NCBI RefSeq assembly: GCF_003990445.1 | Contig: NZ_REEZ01000011.1 | Span: forward strand, 62,001-126,000 | From: Pararhodobacter zhoushanensis | Lineage (GTDB): Bacteria > Pseudomonadota > Alphaproteobacteria > Rhodobacterales > Rhodobacteraceae | Reading direction: 5' to 3' | DNA length: 64,000 bases | In this document: positions 2,394-9,648 of the stretch, one piece after another | Layout of the letters: every line of letters begins with the position of its first letter | Position numbering within the stretch: position 1 is the stretch's first letter | Made by a program: the position numbers and the translations under genes | Notes under the pieces: model-generated | Databases searched by the model: none | The model's input: only the letters and a program-made list of their open reading frames with translations | Told to the model about the DNA's origin: nothing

Positions 2394-3569
2394 TCAAAAG
2401 ATTTCAAACAGGCCGGCAGCACCCGCGCCGCCGCCGATGCACATGGTCACCACGCCCCATTTCGCGCCCCGCCGCTTGCCTTCCAGCAGCACATGGCCCG
2501 CCATGCGCGCGCCTGACATTCCGTAGGGGTGGCCGATGGCGATGGAACCGCCGTTGACGTTGAACTTCTCGGGGTCGATGCCGAGCTGGTCGCGGCAATA
2601 GAGCGCCTGACTGGCGAAGGCCTCGTTCAGCTCCCACAGGTCGATGTCATCGACGATCAGGCCCGCGCGGTCCAGAAGGCGCGGCACGGCATAGATCGGG
2701 CCGATGCCCATCTCATCCGGCTCGCAGCCCGCGACGGCAAAGCCGCGGAACGCGCCCAGCGGTTCCAGCCCCAGCTGCGCCGCGTCTCCGGCGTCCATCA
2801 GGACCAGCGACGCCGCGCCGTCCGACAGTTGCGAGGCATTGCCGGCGGTGACGAAATTCCCCTCACCGCGCACCGGGGCGAGCGAGGCCAGCCCTTCAAG
2901 CGTGGTCGAGGGGCGGTTGCATTCGTCCTGCCGCAGGGTGACGGCCTTCTCGCTGATCTCGCCCGTCGCCTTGTCCTGAACGCCCATCATCACGTCCATC
3001 GGCACGATCTCGTCATCGAAGATCCCGTTGGCCTGCGCCGCCGCGATGCGCTGTTGCGAGCGCAGGGCGTATTCGTCCTGCGCCTCGCGGCTCACGCCAT
3101 AACGCTGGGCGACGATGTCGGCGGTGTCGATCATCGGCAGGTACAGCTCGGGTTTGTTGGCCAGAATCCACGGCTCGGGCGTGTTTCGCGGCGAGGGTTG
3201 GTTCAGGCTGATGCTTTCCACCCCGCCGACCAGCATGGCCCGCGCGCTGTCTTGCGTGATCATCTGCGCGCCCATGGCGATGGCTTGCAACCCGCTGGCG
3301 CAAAAGCGGTTCACCGTGGTGCCCGCCACGCTGACCGGCAGACCGGCACGGATGACCACCTGACGGCCCATGTTGTTGCCGGTGACGTTTTCCGGGATCG
3401 CGCAGCCCCAGATCGAATCCTCGATCATTGCGGGGTCGATCCCCGCCCGCTCGACTGCGTGGCGGGCGGCATGGGCGGCGATGGTAACGCCGTGGGTCTT
3501 GTTGAACGCGCCGCGATAGGCTTTGCCGATGGCAGTGCGGGCGGTCGAAACGATGACAGCTTCTCTCAT
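2394..3569 (-). CDS. acetyl-CoA C-acyltransferase (beta-ketothiolase, PimB/FadA type)
   Basis: A 391-residue thiolase, the usual length. It begins [16 protein letters not shown]. The nucleophilic Cys is in [11 protein letters not shown] (about residue 90), the active-site His in [16 protein letters not shown], and the second catalytic Cys in [10 protein letters not shown] near the C-terminus, so all key residues are present. It cleaves 3-ketoacyl-CoA with CoA to release acetyl-CoA, the last beta-oxidation step. It is 11 nt downstream of the multifunctional hydratase/dehydrogenase and 13 nt upstream of the large dehydrogenase gene, clearly in one operon. Confidence 0.93.
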
Positions 3570-3580
3570 GGCCGGTTCCT

Positions 3581-5665
3581 TCAGTTCAGGCTGTTGAAAT
3601 CGCGACCCTCGGCCACGAGCGTTTTGAGCAGATCGGCCGGTTGCCAGAAGAACGCGTCGTCCTTGGCGGCAGCCTCGATCGTGGCCAGCACATTCGCCAG
3701 CCCGATGTGATCGGCGTAATGCATCGGGCCACCGCGGAAGCGCGGGAAGCCGTAGCCATAAAGCTTGGTCACATCCACATCGAGCGGACGCAGGGCGATG
3801 CCCTCGCTGACCACCTTCGCGCCCTCGTTGATCATCGCGGCCATGTAGCGCTCGACGATCTCTTCGTCGGTAAAGTCGCGGGCGTTGATGCCCTTGGCCT
3901 TGCGCTCGGCGGCGATGATTTCTTCAACCTCGGGGTCGGGGCGGCCCTTGGGCGAGGCGTCATCATAGATGTAATGGCCATGCCCGGTTTTGCGACCCAG
4001 ACGGCCCAGTTCATAGAGCTTGTCGCCCCAGTCGCCCCAGCGCTCGCCTTTCTGACGGGTGGGCAGCAGCCGTTTGCGGGTCAGATAGCCGATGTCGATG
4101 CCCGCCAGATCGGCCACGGCATACGGCCCCATCGCAAAGCCGAAATCGACCAGCGCCTTGTCCACCTGAAACGGCGAGGCGCCTTCCAGCACCATGATAT
4201 CCGCCGCCGTGCGGTAGGTTTTCAGAATGCGGTTGCCGATGAACCCGTCGCAGACCCCGGCGCGCACCGGCACCTTTTTCAGCGCCTTGGCCAGCGCGAA
4301 GCCGGTGGCGACCACCTCGGGCGAGGTCTTGGCGGCCACGACGATTTCCAGGAGCCGCATCACATGCGCGGGCGAGAAGAAGTGCAGCCCGATCACATCC
4401 TGCGGGCGGCTGGTCATGGCAGCGATCTCGTCCACGTCCAGATAGCTGGTGTTCGAGGCCAGCACAGCACCCGGCTTGGCCACAGCGTCCAGCTTGGTGA
4501 ACACGGCTTTCTTGACGTCCATCGATTCAAACACCGCTTCGATGATCACATCGGCGGTCGACAGGGCTTCATAGTCATCGGTCGTCACCAGCTTGTCGGC
4601 CAAAAGCTGATCGCGGCCCCCGGCGCTCAGCTTGCCACGTTTCACACTGTCGGCCAGCGTGCGGGCGATGCCGGTATGGGCTTTCTCGACCGCCTCGCCA
4701 TCGCGCTCGATCAGCGTGACCTGCAGACCGTTGAGCAGACAGCTGACCGCGATCCCGCCGCCCATCGTGCCGCCGCCGATCACGCCGACATGGCGGATGC
4801 TGCGTGGGGTGACGCCCTTCAGCTCGGGCAGTTGTGCGGTTTTGCGTTCGGAAAAGAAGGCGTGGATCATCGCCTTGCGCTGCGGGGTGGCCATCATCTC
4901 AAGGAACACACCGCGTTCCATCAGCATCGCTTCATCGAACGGTTTGTCGGCTCCGGCGACAGCGACGTCGATGGCGCGCAGATGGCAGATATGGCCGGGA
5001 TTGGCGCGTGCGACCTTCTTTTTCAGCGCGGCGAGCGAGTCGGCATCGGTCGGCGGCACCGACATTTCCGACAGGCGGCGCACCGGCAGGCCTTCGGCCA
5101 GCACTTTGCGGGCGAAGGCCATGCCAGCCTCGAACGGATCGGCGTTCGACAGCTCATCCGCGATACCCAGCGCGAAAGCATCCTCGGCGCTGACCTGCCG
5201 GGCCGAGGTGAAGATATCCGCCGCCGAGACAATGCCGACCAGACGCGGCAGGCGTTGCGTGCCGCCAGCGCCGGGGATCAGGCCCAGATTGACCTCGGGC
5301 AGACCCACCTTCGCGCCGCGCAGCATCACGCGGTAATGGCAGCCCAGTGCCACCTCGAACCCGCCGCCCAGCGCTGTGCCGTGGATCACGCAGACCACCG
5401 GCTTTTCTTGCGACTCGAGCGCCATGATCGCGTCGGGCAGGTAGGGCTCTTTCGGCGTCTTGCCAAATTCGGTGATATCCGCCCCGGCGATGAAGGTGCG
5501 GCCCTCGGCCATCAGCACGGCGACTTTCTCGGGGCCCTTGGCGAACGCCTCGGCCGCAGCGACCAGCCCCGCCCGCACCGCGTAGCTTGAGGCGTTGACC
5601 GGCGGGTTGTCGATGCGGATCACAGCGATCTCGCCGTGGGATTCATAGCGGACAGGATTGGTCAT
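3581..5665 (-). CDS. bifunctional enoyl-CoA hydratase / 3-hydroxyacyl-CoA dehydrogenase (PimF/FadB type)
   Basis: A 694-residue fusion. The N-terminal crotonase domain (about 1-200) keeps both catalytic Glu residues ([13 protein letters not shown] and [19 protein letters not shown]). The central Rossmann domain (about 290-470) has [13 protein letters not shown] and the catalytic His in [15 protein letters not shown]. The C-terminal helical dimerisation domains follow. It hydrates trans-2-enoyl-CoA and oxidises the L-3-hydroxyacyl-CoA with NAD. The length and the order with thiolase and two dehydrogenases match PimF of the pim operon. The gene lies 11 nt downstream of the IclR regulator gene. 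Confidence 0.92.
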
Positions 5666-5676
5666 GACGGGTCCTC

Positions 5677-6474
5677 TCAGGTCTGTCGGACAGCCGCGCC
5701 CGGACCGGGCGTGGCAAATAACGCGCCGCCAATACGGCGGCAGGTGGTGGCGATATCCTCGCCGATGGCGTGGCGTGCGGTGGCGTCGATCTGCCCGGCC
5801 AATGTAATGGAAGACACGCCGTAGCGGGCGGTTCCTTGTGCATCGGTCACAATCGAGCCAACGACGTCCACGCCGATGTACAGCTCCCCCAGATCGACAG
5901 CGTAGCCCAAGCGCGCCGCTTCGGCCACGGAGTCGGCGTAGGAGTCGAAGCTGGGCGGCAATTGCCAGCGCAAGGCGGCGAAGGGCGCGCGCAGCGCGTC
6001 GCGCGTCAGGCCACGATGCGCGGCCAGCGCGCGGCCAACGCCGCCGGAATAGGCGGGCAGGCGTTTGCCCATCGGCAGGTCGACGCGGGTGGCGGCGGGG
6101 TCATAGGCACGCTCGATCAGCACGATGCGGTCGTCGCCGGTGATGTGCCAAAGGCACATCAGCGCGCTGTGCTGCAAGGACAGGCGTTCCAGCTCGGGCC
6201 GGATCATGTCGGCGGGGTTGGCGCCCAGCACGCCGACCGCCAACTCGACCAGACCCAGGCCGGGGCGATAGGTCTTGTCGCGCTCGTCGAAGACCAGCAG
6301 CCCCTCGGCCACCAGCGTGCGCAGAAGGTTGAAACAGGTCGAGCCATTCACCCCGGTCGCGCGCGCGATGACACTGACGCCTTCGGGCCGTCCACGCGCC
6401 GAAAGATAGCGCAGGATGCTCAGCGCGTGGACCAAGGCGCCCACGGGTCGGGTCTGGGTGATTTCGTCAGTCAC
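5677..6474 (-). CDS. IclR-family transcriptional regulator
   Basis: A 265-residue regulator with an N-terminal winged helix-turn-helix (about 10-70: ALSILRYLSARGRPEGVSVIA, then GVNGSTCFNLLRTLVAEGLL) and a C-terminal GAF-like ligand domain (GKRLPAYSGGVGRALAA). It is the first gene of the leftward beta-oxidation operon and most likely controls it in response to an acyl-CoA or organic acid. Two overlapping palindromes start 19 nt upstream of the start codon, consistent with autoregulation. The ligand is unknown. Confidence 0.92.
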   Translation of the reverse strand: MTDEITQTRPVGALVHALSILRYLSARGRPEGVSVIARATGVNGSTCFNLLRTLVAEGLLVFDERDKTYRPGLGLVELAVGVLGANPADMIRPELERLSLQHSALMCLWHITGDDRIVLIERAYDPAATRVDLPMGKRLPAYSGGVGRALAAHRGLTRDALRAPFAALRWQLPPSFDSYADSVAEAARLGYAVDLGELYIGVDVVGSIVTDAQGTARYGVSSITLAGQIDATARHAIGEDIATTCRRIGGALFATPGPGAAVRQT

Positions 6475-6592: not shown

Positions 6593-6635
6593 GTGAACGA
6601 CCGGCCCCACGGCCGGGATGCCAGGGGGAGGCACC

Positions 6636-7205
6636 GTGCCGGACGACATCATAGGCTCTTTGTTGCAACGCACCGCAACGCAAGACCGCTCTGCCTTTCA
6701 GCAACTCTATTCCGAGACCGCGCCGAAACTTTCCGGCGTGCTGTTCCGTATCCTCGGCAATAGAACCGAGGTAGATGACGCCATGCAGGAAGTTTATATC
6801 CGCGTCTGGCAACGCGCAGCGCAGTACCGGCCAGACCGGGGGCAGGGGATCAGCTGGCTGATCGCCGTGACCCGCAATCATGCGCTGGACCGGCTGCGCG
6901 CCCGCCCCGAACGGGCAGGGATGCGGCAAGAGGTGGCGCGGGACGAAGACGGGCAAGACCCGCTCGATCGCATCGCCGACCCCACCGCCGGGGTCGAGGC
7001 CGGGCTGGTGGCCAAGGGCGAGGCGCGACGCGTCGTCAATTGCTTTGACGAGCTGGAAGAAGACCGTGCAGCCGCTGTCAAAGGCGCTTATGTTCAGGGC
7101 CTGTCGTATCAGGATCTGGCCGAGCGTCATGGCGTTCCCCTGAACACGATGCGGACCTGGCTGCGCCGGGGCCTGCTGCGGCTGCGGGAGTGCATGGACA
7201 GATGA
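6636..7205 (+). CDS. ECF-family RNA polymerase sigma factor (SigK-like)
   Basis: A 189-residue ECF sigma factor with region 2 (FQQLYSETAPKLSGVLFRI, then DDAMQEVYIRVW and the -10 recognition helix around GISWLIAVTRNHALDRLR) and region 4 (LSYQDLAERHGVPLNTMRTWLRRGLLRLR). The GTG at 6636 is chosen because GGGGGAGG lies 5-6 nt before it; an in-frame ATG at 6618 has no such site. The stop overlaps the anti-sigma start as ATGA, so both are made together. The partner is RskA-type, which places it near the SigK class. Two fasciclin genes downstream carry a shared candidate promoter for it. Confidence 0.93.
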   Translation: MPDDIIGSLLQRTATQDRSAFQQLYSETAPKLSGVLFRILGNRTEVDDAMQEVYIRVWQRAAQYRPDRGQGISWLIAVTRNHALDRLRARPERAGMRQEVARDEDGQDPLDRIADPTAGVEAGLVAKGEARRVVNCFDELEEDRAAAVKGAYVQGLSYQDLAERHGVPLNTMRTWLRRGLLRLRECMDR

Positions 7206-7873
7206 GCGATACATTTGACGCAGGCGCCTGGCCGCCCGAAGATCACGACGACCTCACCGCCGCCGAATACGTGCTGGGCGTGCTGCCGCATCGCGAACGT
7301 CAGGCCGCCCAAGAGCGGGCTGAACTGGATGGCGGTTTCTCGCGCCGGGTCTCGCAATGGGAGGGACGGCTGGCCGTCCTGAATGCCGCCTATGAAGACG
7401 GGCCGGTGAATGCCGCCGTCTATCCGCGCATTGAGTCCGATCTGTTCGGCGCGCCACAGGCTGCCGCTGCACCCGCGCGCCGTGTCCCGGCGTGGCGCCT
7501 GTGGCTGTCGGGCGGGGTGGTCGCCGCGACCGTGGTGCTGGCCGTGATCTTCTGGCCGCAGACCGAGCCACCGCTCAGCGCTCAGCTGACCGGGGAGGCC
7601 GTCGCCTTCAACGCCAGCTTCGACGGCGCGGTCCTGCAGATCGCGCGGGCAGGGGATGCGGCTGACGCGGACCACGATTATGAGCTCTGGGCGATTGGTG
7701 CCGACGGCGTGCCGCGCTCGCTGGGTCTGCTGCGCGGCGAGAGCGCGCAGATTGCCGCGAGCGATCTGGAGCCGGGCGTAACGCTGGCGGTCAGTCTTGA
7801 GCCACTGGGCGGCGCGCCGGATGGGTCGCCGACAGGGCCGGTGCTGGCAGCCGCGGCGCTGGCGGTCAACTGA
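7202..7873 (+). CDS. RskA-type membrane anti-sigma factor
   Basis: A 223-residue single-span membrane protein. The cytoplasmic N-terminus (about 1-95; DLTAAEYVLGVLPHRERQ) is the anti-sigma part. One transmembrane helix (WLSGGVVAATVVLAVIFW, about 100-118) follows, then a periplasmic RskA-like domain (YELWAIGADGVPRSLGLL). In known systems such a protein holds its ECF sigma at the membrane until regulated proteolysis frees it. The start is the ATG at 7202 in the ATGA overlap with the sigma gene; an upstream in-frame ATG at 7190 lies inside that gene. Confidence 0.9.
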   Translation: MSDTFDAGAWPPEDHDDLTAAEYVLGVLPHRERQAAQERAELDGGFSRRVSQWEGRLAVLNAAYEDGPVNAAVYPRIESDLFGAPQAAAAPARRVPAWRLWLSGGVVAATVVLAVIFWPQTEPPLSAQLTGEAVAFNASFDGAVLQIARAGDAADADHDYELWAIGADGVPRSLGLLRGESAQIAASDLEPGVTLAVSLEPLGGAPDGSPTGPVLAAAALAVN

Positions 7874-7944
7874 GCCAAGGCGGAGTGACTTGGGAAACGG
7901 CGTCGGGAAACCGGCGCCGTTTCGCGTTGCGGCGGTTGGCGGAA

Positions 7945-8021
7945 GGTGCGGTGAAACCGCACCCTACGGGCGCTTCACGCGCTGCCCTAAACGCCACCGT
8001 AGGGTGCGGTTTCACCGCACC
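7945..8021. repeat. 25-bp perfect inverted repeat built from two palindromic units
   Basis: The arms at 7945-7969 and 7997-8021 are exact reverse complements separated by 27 nt. Each arm contains an internal hairpin GGTGCGGT-(3 nt)-ACCGCACC followed or preceded by a CCGTAGG-type flank. The unit recurs with one compensatory base-pair change at 28467-28489. It lies between the anti-sigma gene and the first fasciclin gene and could terminate or attenuate read-through, but no T-run follows. It looks like a small dispersed palindromic (REP-like) element. Confidence 0.8.
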
Positions 8022-8073
8022 GTTGCAGGCCTCCTGCCTCTCACGCGACCGTGATCGCCAAAAATCGCCGCGC

Positions 8074-8103
8074 TGAAACTTGCGCACGAATCCTCCCGTT
8101 TCT
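8074..8103 (+). promoter_or_regulatory. ECF sigma promoter of fasciclin gene 1
   Basis: TGAAACTT at 8074-8081 (-35) and CGTTTCT at 8097-8103 (-10): GAAAC to CGTT spacing is 17 nt. The same elements with identical spacing precede the second fasciclin gene, with a shared TGATC...AAAAATC stretch just upstream. The -35 AAC core and CGT-type -10 are typical of ECF promoters. Recognition by the adjacent sigma factor is inferred. Confidence 0.65.
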
Positions 8104-8152
8104 GGAGCATGGGCCAAACAGCCCGACCAACAGATCCAACGGGAGAACCACC

Positions 8153-8704
8153 ATGAAAACCATCCTCGCCGCCGCTGCCCTTGCCGCCACTGCGCTGGGC
8201 TCGACCGTCGCCTTCGCCGCCAACCCCAATGTCGGCGGTGCCGCGATGTTCGAGAACCGCAACATCGTCGAGAACGCTGTGAACTCGGCTGACCACACCA
8301 CGCTGGTCGCTGCCGTTCAGGCCGCCGGTCTGGTTGAAACGCTGCAGGGTGAGGGTCCTTTTACCGTCTTCGCCCCCACCAACGACGCTTTCGCGATGCT
8401 GCCCGCCGGTACCGTCGAGGATCTGCTCAAGCCCGAGAACCTCGAGACCCTGCAGACCATCCTGACCTGCCACGTCGTGCCGACCCGCGCGCTGTGGGGT
8501 GACATCAACGGCATGATCCGCGCCGATGGTGGCAGCCATGTGATCAACACCGTCGGTGGCTGCGAATTCACCGCGACCAACCGCAACGGCGTGATCACCA
8601 TCGAAGACGGCCGGGGCACGCTGGCCCATGTGACCATCGCCGACGTGATGCAGTCCAATGGCGTGATCCACGTCATCGACCACGTCCTGCTGCCCGCCAT
8701 GTAA
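8153..8704 (+). CDS. secreted fasciclin (FAS1) domain protein 1
   Basis: 183 residues: an N-terminal signal peptide (MKTILAAAALAATALGSTVAFA, cleavage expected after AFA) and one FAS1 domain (NIVENAVNSADHTTLVAAVQ; GPFTVFAPTNDAFAML, the H1 box; GVIHVIDHVLLP, the H2 box). FAS1 proteins are extracytoplasmic adhesion or ligand-binding modules. The start is ATG at 8153, preceded by GGGAGA; an upstream in-frame ATG gives an implausible extension. It has a close tandem paralogue 127 nt downstream. It contains two Cys in positions shared with the paralogue, possibly a disulfide. Confidence 0.93.
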   Translation: MKTILAAAALAATALGSTVAFAANPNVGGAAMFENRNIVENAVNSADHTTLVAAVQAAGLVETLQGEGPFTVFAPTNDAFAMLPAGTVEDLLKPENLETLQTILTCHVVPTRALWGDINGMIRADGGSHVINTVGGCEFTATNRNGVITIEDGRGTLAHVTIADVMQSNGVIHVIDHVLLPAM

Positions 8705-8755
8705 ACGACCCGGCGGAGGCTTCACGGCCCTGTGATCAAAGAAAAAATCAGAGCC

Positions 8756-8785
8756 TGAAACTTCCGCCCCCAGCCTTTCGTTCTT
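8756..8785 (+). promoter_or_regulatory. ECF sigma promoter of fasciclin gene 2
   Basis: TGAAACTT at 8756-8763 and CGTTCTT at 8779-8785, with GAAAC to CGTT spacing of 17 nt exactly as in the promoter at 8074-8103. The distance from the -10 to the start codon is also close to that of copy 1 (about 46 versus 49 nt). The conserved block includes a TGATC...AAAAATC stretch upstream, so the promoter was probably duplicated with the gene. Confidence 0.65.
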
Positions 8786-8831
8786 AACCCATAGGCCACC
8801 GAGCCTGATGACCACTAACAGGAGATCTACG

Positions 8832-9386
8832 ATGAAAACCCTTTTTGCCGCTGCCGCCGTTGCGATGACCGCTCTGGGCTCGAGTGTTGCTTTCGCCGAA
8901 AACCCGATGGTGGGCGGCGCCGAGATGTTCGCCGACCGCAACATCGTCGAGAACGCCGTGAACTCGGCTGACCACACCACGCTGGTTGCCGCCGTGCAGG
9001 CCGCTGGTCTGGTTGACACGCTGTCGGGTGAAGGCCCGTTCACCGTGTTCGCGCCGACCAACGAAGCTTTCGCCATGCTGCCCGAGGGCACCGTCGAATC
9101 GCTTCTGCTGCCGGCCAACCTGAGCCAGCTGCAGCAGATCCTGACCTGCCACGTTGTCGCGGGTGACGTCATGAGCGGTGCGATCCGTTCGATGATCGAA
9201 AACGATGGCGGCAGCCACCCGTTCACCACCGTTGGCGGCTGTACCTTCACGCTGATCATGGACCCCAACAACACGATCCAGATCCGTGACGGCATGGGCA
9301 ACATTGCCGACGTGACCATTGCCGACGTCGAGCAGTCGAACGGCGTGATCCACGTGATCGACCACGTCCTGATGCCGCAAATGTAA
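8832..9386 (+). CDS. secreted fasciclin (FAS1) domain protein 2
   Basis: 184 residues, same architecture as the preceding gene: signal peptide (MKTLFAAAAVAMTALGSSVAFA) and a single FAS1 domain with GPFTVFAPTNEAFAMLPEG and GVIHVIDHVLMP. Long stretches are identical to paralogue 1 (NIVENAVNSADHTTLVAAVQ), while the middle of the domain (residues about 95-150) has diverged. The start ATG at 8832 follows AGGAGA. It probably belongs to the same sigma-factor regulon. Two terminators close the locus. Confidence 0.93.
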   Translation: MKTLFAAAAVAMTALGSSVAFAENPMVGGAEMFADRNIVENAVNSADHTTLVAAVQAAGLVDTLSGEGPFTVFAPTNEAFAMLPEGTVESLLLPANLSQLQQILTCHVVAGDVMSGAIRSMIENDGGSHPFTTVGGCTFTLIMDPNNTIQIRDGMGNIADVTIADVEQSNGVIHVIDHVLMPQM

Positions 9387-9449
9387 GCGGCCAAGGATAC
9401 CCCGAAAGGGTTGGCTGCCTGTCCCCCAATCACAGGTGGTCGATCCCCG

Positions 9450-9479
9450 GCCCCGGCGCTCTGCGCCGGGGCTTTTTTA
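9450..9479 (+). terminator. rho-independent terminator of the fasciclin locus
   Basis: Perfect 10-bp stem GCCCCGGCGC / GCGCCGGGGC with TCT loop, followed directly by TTTTTT. It is a strong intrinsic terminator 63 nt after the second fasciclin stop codon. Confidence 0.92.
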
Positions 9480-9572: not shown

Positions 9573-9648
9573 TGGTGGGTAATGACGGGCTCGAACCGCC
9601 GACATTCTCGGTGTAAACGAGACGCTCTACCAACTGAGCTAATCACCC
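9573..9648 (-). tRNA. tRNA-Val (anticodon UAC)
   Basis: On the minus strand the 76-nt sequence begins GGGTGATTAGCTCAGTTGG and ends ATTACCCACCA. The acceptor stem GGGTGAT pairs with ATTACCC (one G-T). The D-arm is GCTC...GAGC, the anticodon loop TTTACAC gives UAC, and the T-arm contains GGTTCGAGCC. The 3' CCA is encoded. All cloverleaf elements are present. Confidence 0.95.

Follow-up and report, generated by a model that had tools for sequence, protein, structure and literature searches.

A SigK-like sigma factor and its RskA-type anti-sigma factor probably drive exported FAS1 proteins through a shared promoter-like motif

The 64,000-nt stretch of Pararhodobacter zhoushanensis DNA analysed here (contig NZ_REEZ01000011.1, positions 62,001 to 126,000; hereafter the window) carries a gene for an extracytoplasmic function (ECF) sigma factor that overlaps a gene for an RskA-type anti-sigma factor and is followed by two genes for exported FAS1 proteins, FAS1-A and FAS1-B. 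Coordinates and Pfam domains agree in this with an earlier annotation made from the letters alone (the sequence-only reading), which had proposed the same arrangement. We place the sigma start at the GTG at 6636, preceded by a strong ribosome-binding site (AGGGGGAGG), an alternative ATG at 6618 being possible. The sigma stop and the rskA start overlap as ATGA, and 279 nt separate rskA from FAS1-A and 127 nt FAS1-A from FAS1-B. RskA consists of an N-terminal part, a single clearly hydrophobic segment (residues about 100-118) and the RskA_C domain. Profile searches of the same genome returned two RskA_C matches and, in all, two FAS1 matches, namely FAS1-A and FAS1-B.

Table 1 Features of the sigma/rskA/FAS1 locus in the window, and of a second motif-bearing locus in the same genome
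Feature	Position	Strand	Basis or remark
ECF sigma factor, SigK-like (ECF18/19-type)	6636..7205	+	Pfam sigma-70 r2 and r4_2; Cys residues 136 and 186
RskA-type anti-sigma factor	7202..7873	+	RskA_C 54.4 bits (cut-off 29.4), hydropathy, alignment of 28 homologues
Predicted ECF promoter of FAS1-A, TGAAACT-N16-CGTTTCT	8074..8103	+	G of GAAAC 78 nt 5' of ATG
FAS1-A, 183 aa, exported	8153..8704	+	Pfam Fasciclin 117.1 bits (cut-off 22); signal peptide ...AFA/ANPNVGG
Predicted ECF promoter of FAS1-B, GAAACT-N16-CGTTCTT	8757..8785	+	Looser end than CGTnnCT; G 75 nt 5' of ATG
FAS1-B, 184 aa, exported	8832..9386	+	Pfam Fasciclin 116.1 bits (cut-off 22); 73% identity to FAS1-A (alignment)
Intrinsic-terminator-like hairpin and T-run, 3' of FAS1-B	9449..9473	+	
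DUF7282 protein	Contig C56 of the same genome, L246:1359-1796	+	Signal peptide; motif in front
Glutathione peroxidase	Contig C56 of the same genome, L246:668-1252	-	Signal peptide by eye; divergent from the DUF7282 gene

Structure matching, phylogeny and cysteine content support the window sigma as SigK-like. The best solved-structure match of a 29-sigma profile was Mycobacterium tuberculosis SigK (4NQW, 142.4 bits), ahead of R. sphaeroides RpoE (96.9) and SigW (84.5). The NCBIfam SigK model PRK09646 scored 137.1 bits, under its curated cut-off of 226, which is why we write SigK-like instead of SigK; the best NCBIfam model, PRK12514 (210.5 bits), likewise fell under its own cut-off of 265. Two cysteines are invariant in 29/29 homologues and align with the SigK pair of 4NQW. 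Equivalents of SigK Cys133/Cys183 are reported for 94% of ECF18 and 56% of ECF19 sigmas and for <2% elsewhere (PMC7509140). A sigma tree of 83 rows placed the Rhodobacterales and Rhizobiales cassette sigmas in one group (62 rows, support 99/97) and recovered a larger group including SigK and others (75 rows, 98/86), both to be read with a long-branch warning, SigK's branch included, and an unsettled bootstrap. By a simple pattern, the cysteine pair was present in 75/75 rows of the SigK-containing clade and in 0/8 remaining rows. Closest structure, shared clade, both cysteines and the adjoining RskA-type gene bear out the SigK likeness that had been proposed from the sequence alone. As to the anti-sigma factor, the AS19-1 group is described as having the helix motifs HTLAGAYALDAL and LDDERAAFERHL (PMC7406223); the consensus of 28 RskA homologues reads xALAAEYVLGLL and ERxAFEARL, a resemblance judged by eye only. 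The genome also holds a second SigK-like sigma/RskA_C pair on contig C6 (L146:2009-3369; Pfam run on the sigma), directly 3' of a gene for a DUF4394-like protein (by eye).

Turning to the FAS1 proteins, both signal peptides, read by eye, end in AFA and lack a lipobox cysteine. FAS1-A, for which AlphaFold2 returned a confident model (mean pLDDT 90), has cysteines at residues 106 and 137. Among 135 aligned proteins of its subfamily, drawn from slightly overlapping source sets, 73 have both cysteines, 62 neither and none one alone. Because the pair is all-or-none and no further cysteine occurs after residue 25, a disulfide is likely in the proteins that carry it, and we predict Cys106-Cys137 as the likely disulfide of FAS1-A.

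The neighbourhood is conserved. We defined the window's FAS1 subfamily as at least 165 bits with FAS1-A (next match 136) and searched a family set of 149 genomes, one per genus and with the genome under study included. The subfamily was found in 48, RskA_C in 59 and both in 45 (Fisher p 5e-22, nominal because the genomes are related). The two lie no more than 3 kb apart in 32/48 genomes, always on the same strand, and the family loci fetched showed the order sigma-rskA-FAS1, except G107 with FAS1 first; contig ends cut off the sigma gene in G022 and G087. From a named collection, the best 80 of at least 582 FAS1 relatives were examined as loci, with some overlap with the family genomes (L158 is the G121 contig, L222 the G047 contig). 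Sigma and FAS1 shared a strand in 33 (32 with sigma first, L228 with FAS1 first) and lay on opposite strands in nine, and 38 had no sigma within the stretch examined. The 33 same-strand loci span Agrobacterium, Rhizobium, Ensifer, Mesorhizobium, Devosia, Paraburkholderia, Comamonas and a sphingomonad. Neighbour conservation, which the sequence-only reading had set beforehand as one of two tests that could refute it, held in those 32 family genomes and in the named loci. That sigma, rskA and FAS1 are chance neighbours finds some room in the 16/48 genomes without linkage within 3 kb (in 13 of which RskA_C occurs at another place, and where contig ends may mask linkage), yet the linkage in the other 32 and the promoter counts given next make coincidence exceedingly improbable.

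Inspection of the regions before the FAS1 genes revealed the consensus tGAAACt-N16-CGTnnCT. GAAAC...CGT lies upstream of 50/59 subfamily FAS1 genes of the family genomes, 69-104 nt before the start and with a spacer of 16 in 48 of the 50. Chance would give 1.1 matches in the 59 upstream regions at three spacings, and hence about two at the five spacings allowed. In the window, a separate ECF-type promoter is predicted for each FAS1 gene, so we rejected FAS1 expression by read-through from the sigma operon only; some second tandem FAS1 copies or domains in other genomes have no promoter-like site of their own. The nine genes without the motif comprise three second copies or domains that lack a start region of their own (L105, L118, L122), three with, by eye, a CAACT form of the -35 element (L095, L097, L127) and three in genomes lacking the main sigma clade (G042, G052, G117). 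Presence of the motif follows the sigma: of the FAS1 genes in genomes that carry the sigma clade, with two contig-edge genomes counted as carriers, 49/55 bear it, against 1/4 in the remaining genomes (nominal p 0.0095). Likewise, 22/26 named loci with a linked main-clade sigma (at least 240 bits) have the motif within 160 nt upstream; of the other four, L170 has its site further upstream (another start), two Paracoccus loci show GCAACT by eye and Devosia L160 has none clear.

The -35 element of SigK is CCATCC, whereas that of the window is GAAACT. Upstream regions in Paraburkholderia and a sphingomonad read, by eye, GCATCC...CGTATC, which we take to resemble the SigK -35; sigma and promoter may therefore have drifted in step. 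A search of the open-licence literature for the SigK promoter motif gave nothing usable.

By comparison, GAAAC...CGT was absent from all 34 best-scoring FAS1 genes of a shorter subfamily that were examined (30 loci). TGATCY-N14-17-CGTA, a pattern that presumably fits the -35 of R. sphaeroides RpoE, precedes 11/34 of these genes (L003-L032) but only 1/59 of the window subfamily; it had been loosened after a first look, which had given 6/34. Perhaps, then, the two FAS1 subfamilies use two ECF promoter codes. These counts bear on the proposal that a different ECF, of the RpoE-ChrR type or from the C6 SigK-like pair, reads the FAS1 promoters while the adjacent sigma-rskA pair has another job. As the GAAAC/CGT type is common among ECF promoters, the motif could be read by another ECF; the genome encodes the second sigma/RskA_C pair along with two ChrR-cupin domain matches; and G113, a 90% complete assembly without the window-type sigma, has a motif-bearing FAS1 gene. 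However, motif frequency tracks the window sigma clade, the FAS1 promoter of G042, which has only a paralogous pair (sigma 134 bits), lacks the motif, and the RpoE-ChrR-like pattern marks the shorter subfamily. We consider a different ECF an unlikely reader.

To extend the motif to genomic scale, we counted a strict form, TGAAACT-N16-CGTNNCT, with the reversed motif as control, and scored genomes as sigma-positive at a sigma match of at least 220 bits. There were 76 sites in 51 sigma-positive genomes (control 10) and 19 in 90 sigma-negative ones (control 16), plus 3 in six genomes with an intermediate sigma (control 2) and 3 in two contig-edge genomes (control 0). Since the motif came to light in the two FAS1 promoters of the window and its strict form derives from 48 FAS1 sites, FAS1 sites are no independent test; the 53 sites left in sigma-positive genomes after subtraction of 23 FAS1 sites are one. 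Gene context was read in the sigma-positive genomes and at two G113 sites among the sigma-negative ones. In a classification of the 76 sites done by hand, not blind, and with the type II secretion class added late, 60 precede a gene class recurring in at least two sigma-positive genomes: FAS1 (23), secreted DUF7282 (12), DUF4864 (8), small exported AKGHDQ-type proteins (4, by eye), type II secretion (4), DUF4394 (3), TPR-small (2), RTX-repeat (2) and FAD oxidase (2). DUF4198, CMAS, DUF4331 and glutathione peroxidase genes follow single sites, and the other 12 sites fell into no class.

In P. zhoushanensis itself, the strict motif precedes FAS1-A and the DUF7282 gene on contig C56, which is likely another sigma target by its upstream sequence; FAS1-B matches the looser form. 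The looser pattern has five matches in this genome, two at FAS1, one at DUF7282, one on C34, where no convincing target gene was seen once the locus was opened, and one on C2. Motif matches inside sigma genes, at SAKLFGV codons, look like coding coincidences and were set aside. Loci were opened in the sigma-positive genomes without subfamily FAS1 other than G147, eight in all. Three had a strict motif beside the sigma and before an exported protein, namely DUF7282 in G001 and G079 (with two more such sites in G079) and DUF4394 in G134; the other five had no strict motif in the stretch beside the sigma. Further sites hint at an oxidative signal. G123, whose sigma match is partial, has a looser site before an exported MsrB, and glutathione peroxidase is among the motif targets of G002. 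In G088 the motif is followed by an FAD oxidase gene (Pfam) and, identified by eye, DUF1365-like and CMAS-like genes. A comparable G015 site is followed, after 131 nt, by genes for FAD oxidase, DUF1365 and CMAS, beyond which lies a ChrR-cupin gene. The genes rv0449c to rv0447c are, we presume, an FAD oxidase-DUF1365-CFA set of the same kind. Among these, rv0449c is listed as SigK-regulated together with mpt83, dipZ and mpt70 (PMC5547695).

The kind of module described here is already known, as a sigK-rskA-FAS1 cassette has been published for Yersinia. The study in question describes a SigK site in this mpt83-sigK-rskA cassette and tests the cassette in Yersinia; for the pairs of both Mycobacterium and Yersinia, it also reports that RskA inhibits SigK and that RskA, when truncated or mutated, can play an activating part (PMC7509140). 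The parallel with mycobacteria drawn in the sequence-only reading is therefore no new one. With the mycobacterial SigK-RskA-MPT70/MPT83 system and the Yersinia cassette, the window shares a SigK-clade sigma with both cysteines, an RskA_C membrane anti-sigma factor, an exported FAS1 neighbour and an ECF site predicted upstream of FAS1. It differs from them in gene order, which is sigma-rskA-FAS1 here and FAS1 first in the published cassette name, and in that no autoregulatory site was seen before the window sigma. The FAS1 proteins differ too: their subfamily is longer, its two cysteines are present or absent together, and a lipobox is missing, whereas MPT83-type proteins are lipid-anchored.

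Might the locus be a direct copy, passed on vertically or laterally, of the SigK-RskA-MPT70/83 module of mycobacteria, so that the FAS1 proteins are orthologues? The SigK clade, RskA_C, the FAS1 output and the Yersinia cassette (PMC7509140) would all fit. The FAS1 proteins themselves speak against it: MPT70 scores 66 bits with the window's subfamily and 96 with the shorter Rhodobacteraceae one, the aligned region of the former is longer (149 profile positions versus 137 residues in MPT70), and human TGFBI domains outscore MPT70 in both subfamily lists. A specific relation to MPT70 thus found no support, and orthology with mpt70/83 is unproven rather than excluded. Together with the missing lipobox, the other gene order and the other -35, this leaves direct copying improbable. 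Of the parallel as originally drawn, the SigK-like sigma and the conserved neighbours stand; to be added are the earlier publication, the other gene order and -35 and the separate promoter of each FAS1 gene, and orthology of the FAS1 outputs with MPT70/83 is so far unsupported.

Related pairs are described closer to home. R. capsulatus RpoE/ChrR (RCAP_rcc00699/00698) is described as SigK/RskA-like and induced by singlet oxygen (PMC7074977). Compared by description only, it likewise is a SigK/RskA-like pair in Rhodobacteraceae, but a glutathione peroxidase gene and a cryptochrome/photolyase operon adjoin it where the window has FAS1 genes (PMC7074977). The R. sphaeroides fasciclin RSP_1409 is reported as an induced member of the RpoE regulon (PMC7074977). 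R. sphaeroides RpoE-ChrR (ECF11) resembles the window system as an ECF sigma/anti-sigma pair with a fasciclin in its regulon, as described, and overlapping cyclopropane fatty acid targets, but it belongs to another sigma branch with another anti-sigma family, and RpoE-like sites mark the shorter FAS1 subfamily. In A. brasilense, a fasciclin is said to mediate flocculation under RpoE-ChrR, in a statement citing a paper titled for photooxidative stress (PMC10949492).

Taken together, we regard the locus as quite probably a SigK-type sigma/RskA envelope stress module that drives exported FAS1 through tGAAACt-N16-CGTnnCT promoters. The DNA itself shows what the genes are, that their linkage is conserved, that a promoter-like motif is confined to one of the FAS1 subfamilies examined, that this motif goes with genomes having the sigma, and that its co-targets recur. 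From the co-occurrence, the window sigma probably reads the motif, and RskA would act here as its inhibitor. At rest, RskA would tether the sigma to the membrane. A signal from the envelope, with oxidative damage the likeliest, would cause RskA to be lost or remodelled by regulated proteolysis, a step possibly tuned by the two cysteines of the sigma. The freed sigma would then take RNA polymerase to the tGAAACt-N16-CGTnnCT promoters, giving exported FAS1 and a limited group of further exported, membrane or redox proteins, among them, in P. zhoushanensis, probably the secreted DUF7282 protein encoded on another contig. We infer the oxidative nature of the signal because of the redox co-targets and the R. 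capsulatus, R. sphaeroides and A. brasilense systems. Outside the inner membrane, FAS1 probably serves in adhesion, aggregation or shielding.

A variant that keeps the same regulation, and to that extent overlaps with the above, takes surface contact or growth phase as the signal and adhesion or biofilm formation as the role. R. sphaeroides Fdp, a FAS1-domain protein, is reported to be needed for adherence and to be under Prr control (PMC7561615), and in Delftia attached to roots a fasciclin gene is upregulated (PMC7725335). In three genomes (G001, G006, G066; loci L289, L304, L311), the motif precedes type II secretion genes (GspL, GspI); two of the sites lie ~150 nt upstream, and the G001 site has a second clade sigma 3-4 kb away, on contig C8. 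Set against this are the MsrB, glutathione peroxidase and CMAS/FAD-oxidase genes among the targets and the oxidative inducers published for related pairs (PMC7074977), so that we hold the variant possible but the less favoured choice.

Several observations weigh against the stress-module reading itself, besides the G113 gene and the commonness of the promoter type mentioned above. Among the best 80 named loci, 14/42 with a sigma in the stretch lack the motif (28/42 have it) and 8/38 without one there have it. Nine of the 51 sigma-positive genomes have no FAS1 of the subfamily at the 165-bit cut. No consistent motif precedes the sigma gene, with loose matches at scattered positions in 6/33 upstream regions. 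Redox co-targets are few, and the G015 site lies inside the 3' end of a photolyase gene. Finally, the genome of P. zhoushanensis gave no photosynthetic reaction-centre match, which also led us to reject a phototroph-only module.

As for the surroundings of the locus, a perfect 25-nt inverted repeat (GGTGCGGTGAAACCGCACCCTACGG) lies at 7945-8021, between rskA and FAS1-A. Allowing no more than two mismatches, we counted 47 copies of its core pattern in the genome (control 0); these are frequently arranged in inverted pairs, which points to a REP-like element family. Beta-oxidation and IclR genes (Pfam run on the IclR gene), possible members of the module, lie upstream at 2394-6474, and a tRNA-Val (tac) gene is located just 3' of the locus, at 9573-9648 on the minus strand.

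With the sigK-rskA-FAS1 cassette already known, our analysis adds an alphaproteobacterial promoter code, a FAS1 subfamily and a target list; none of the three was found in the open-licence literature searched, although the ECF classification and the 2008 SigK papers may cover part. It also places DUF7282, DUF4864 and DUF4394, exported proteins whose function is not known (for DUF7282, no paper was found in the open-licence literature), in one candidate stress regulon. More tentatively, the alphaproteobacterial and mycobacterial SigK systems could be one ancient extracytoplasmic oxidation response, in which FAS1 subfamilies are split between GAAACT...CGT (SigK-like) and TGATCC...CGTA (RpoE-ChrR) and the old regulon core is an exported FAS1 plus an FAD oxidase/DUF1365/CFA operon. 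If true, oxidative envelope protection would be the ancestral job of a system that includes the tuberculosis antigens MPT70/83. Independently of this, the version found in environmental alphaproteobacteria, whose promoter-like code is defined and whose targets are few and recurrent, makes the signal and the function of FAS1 tractable.

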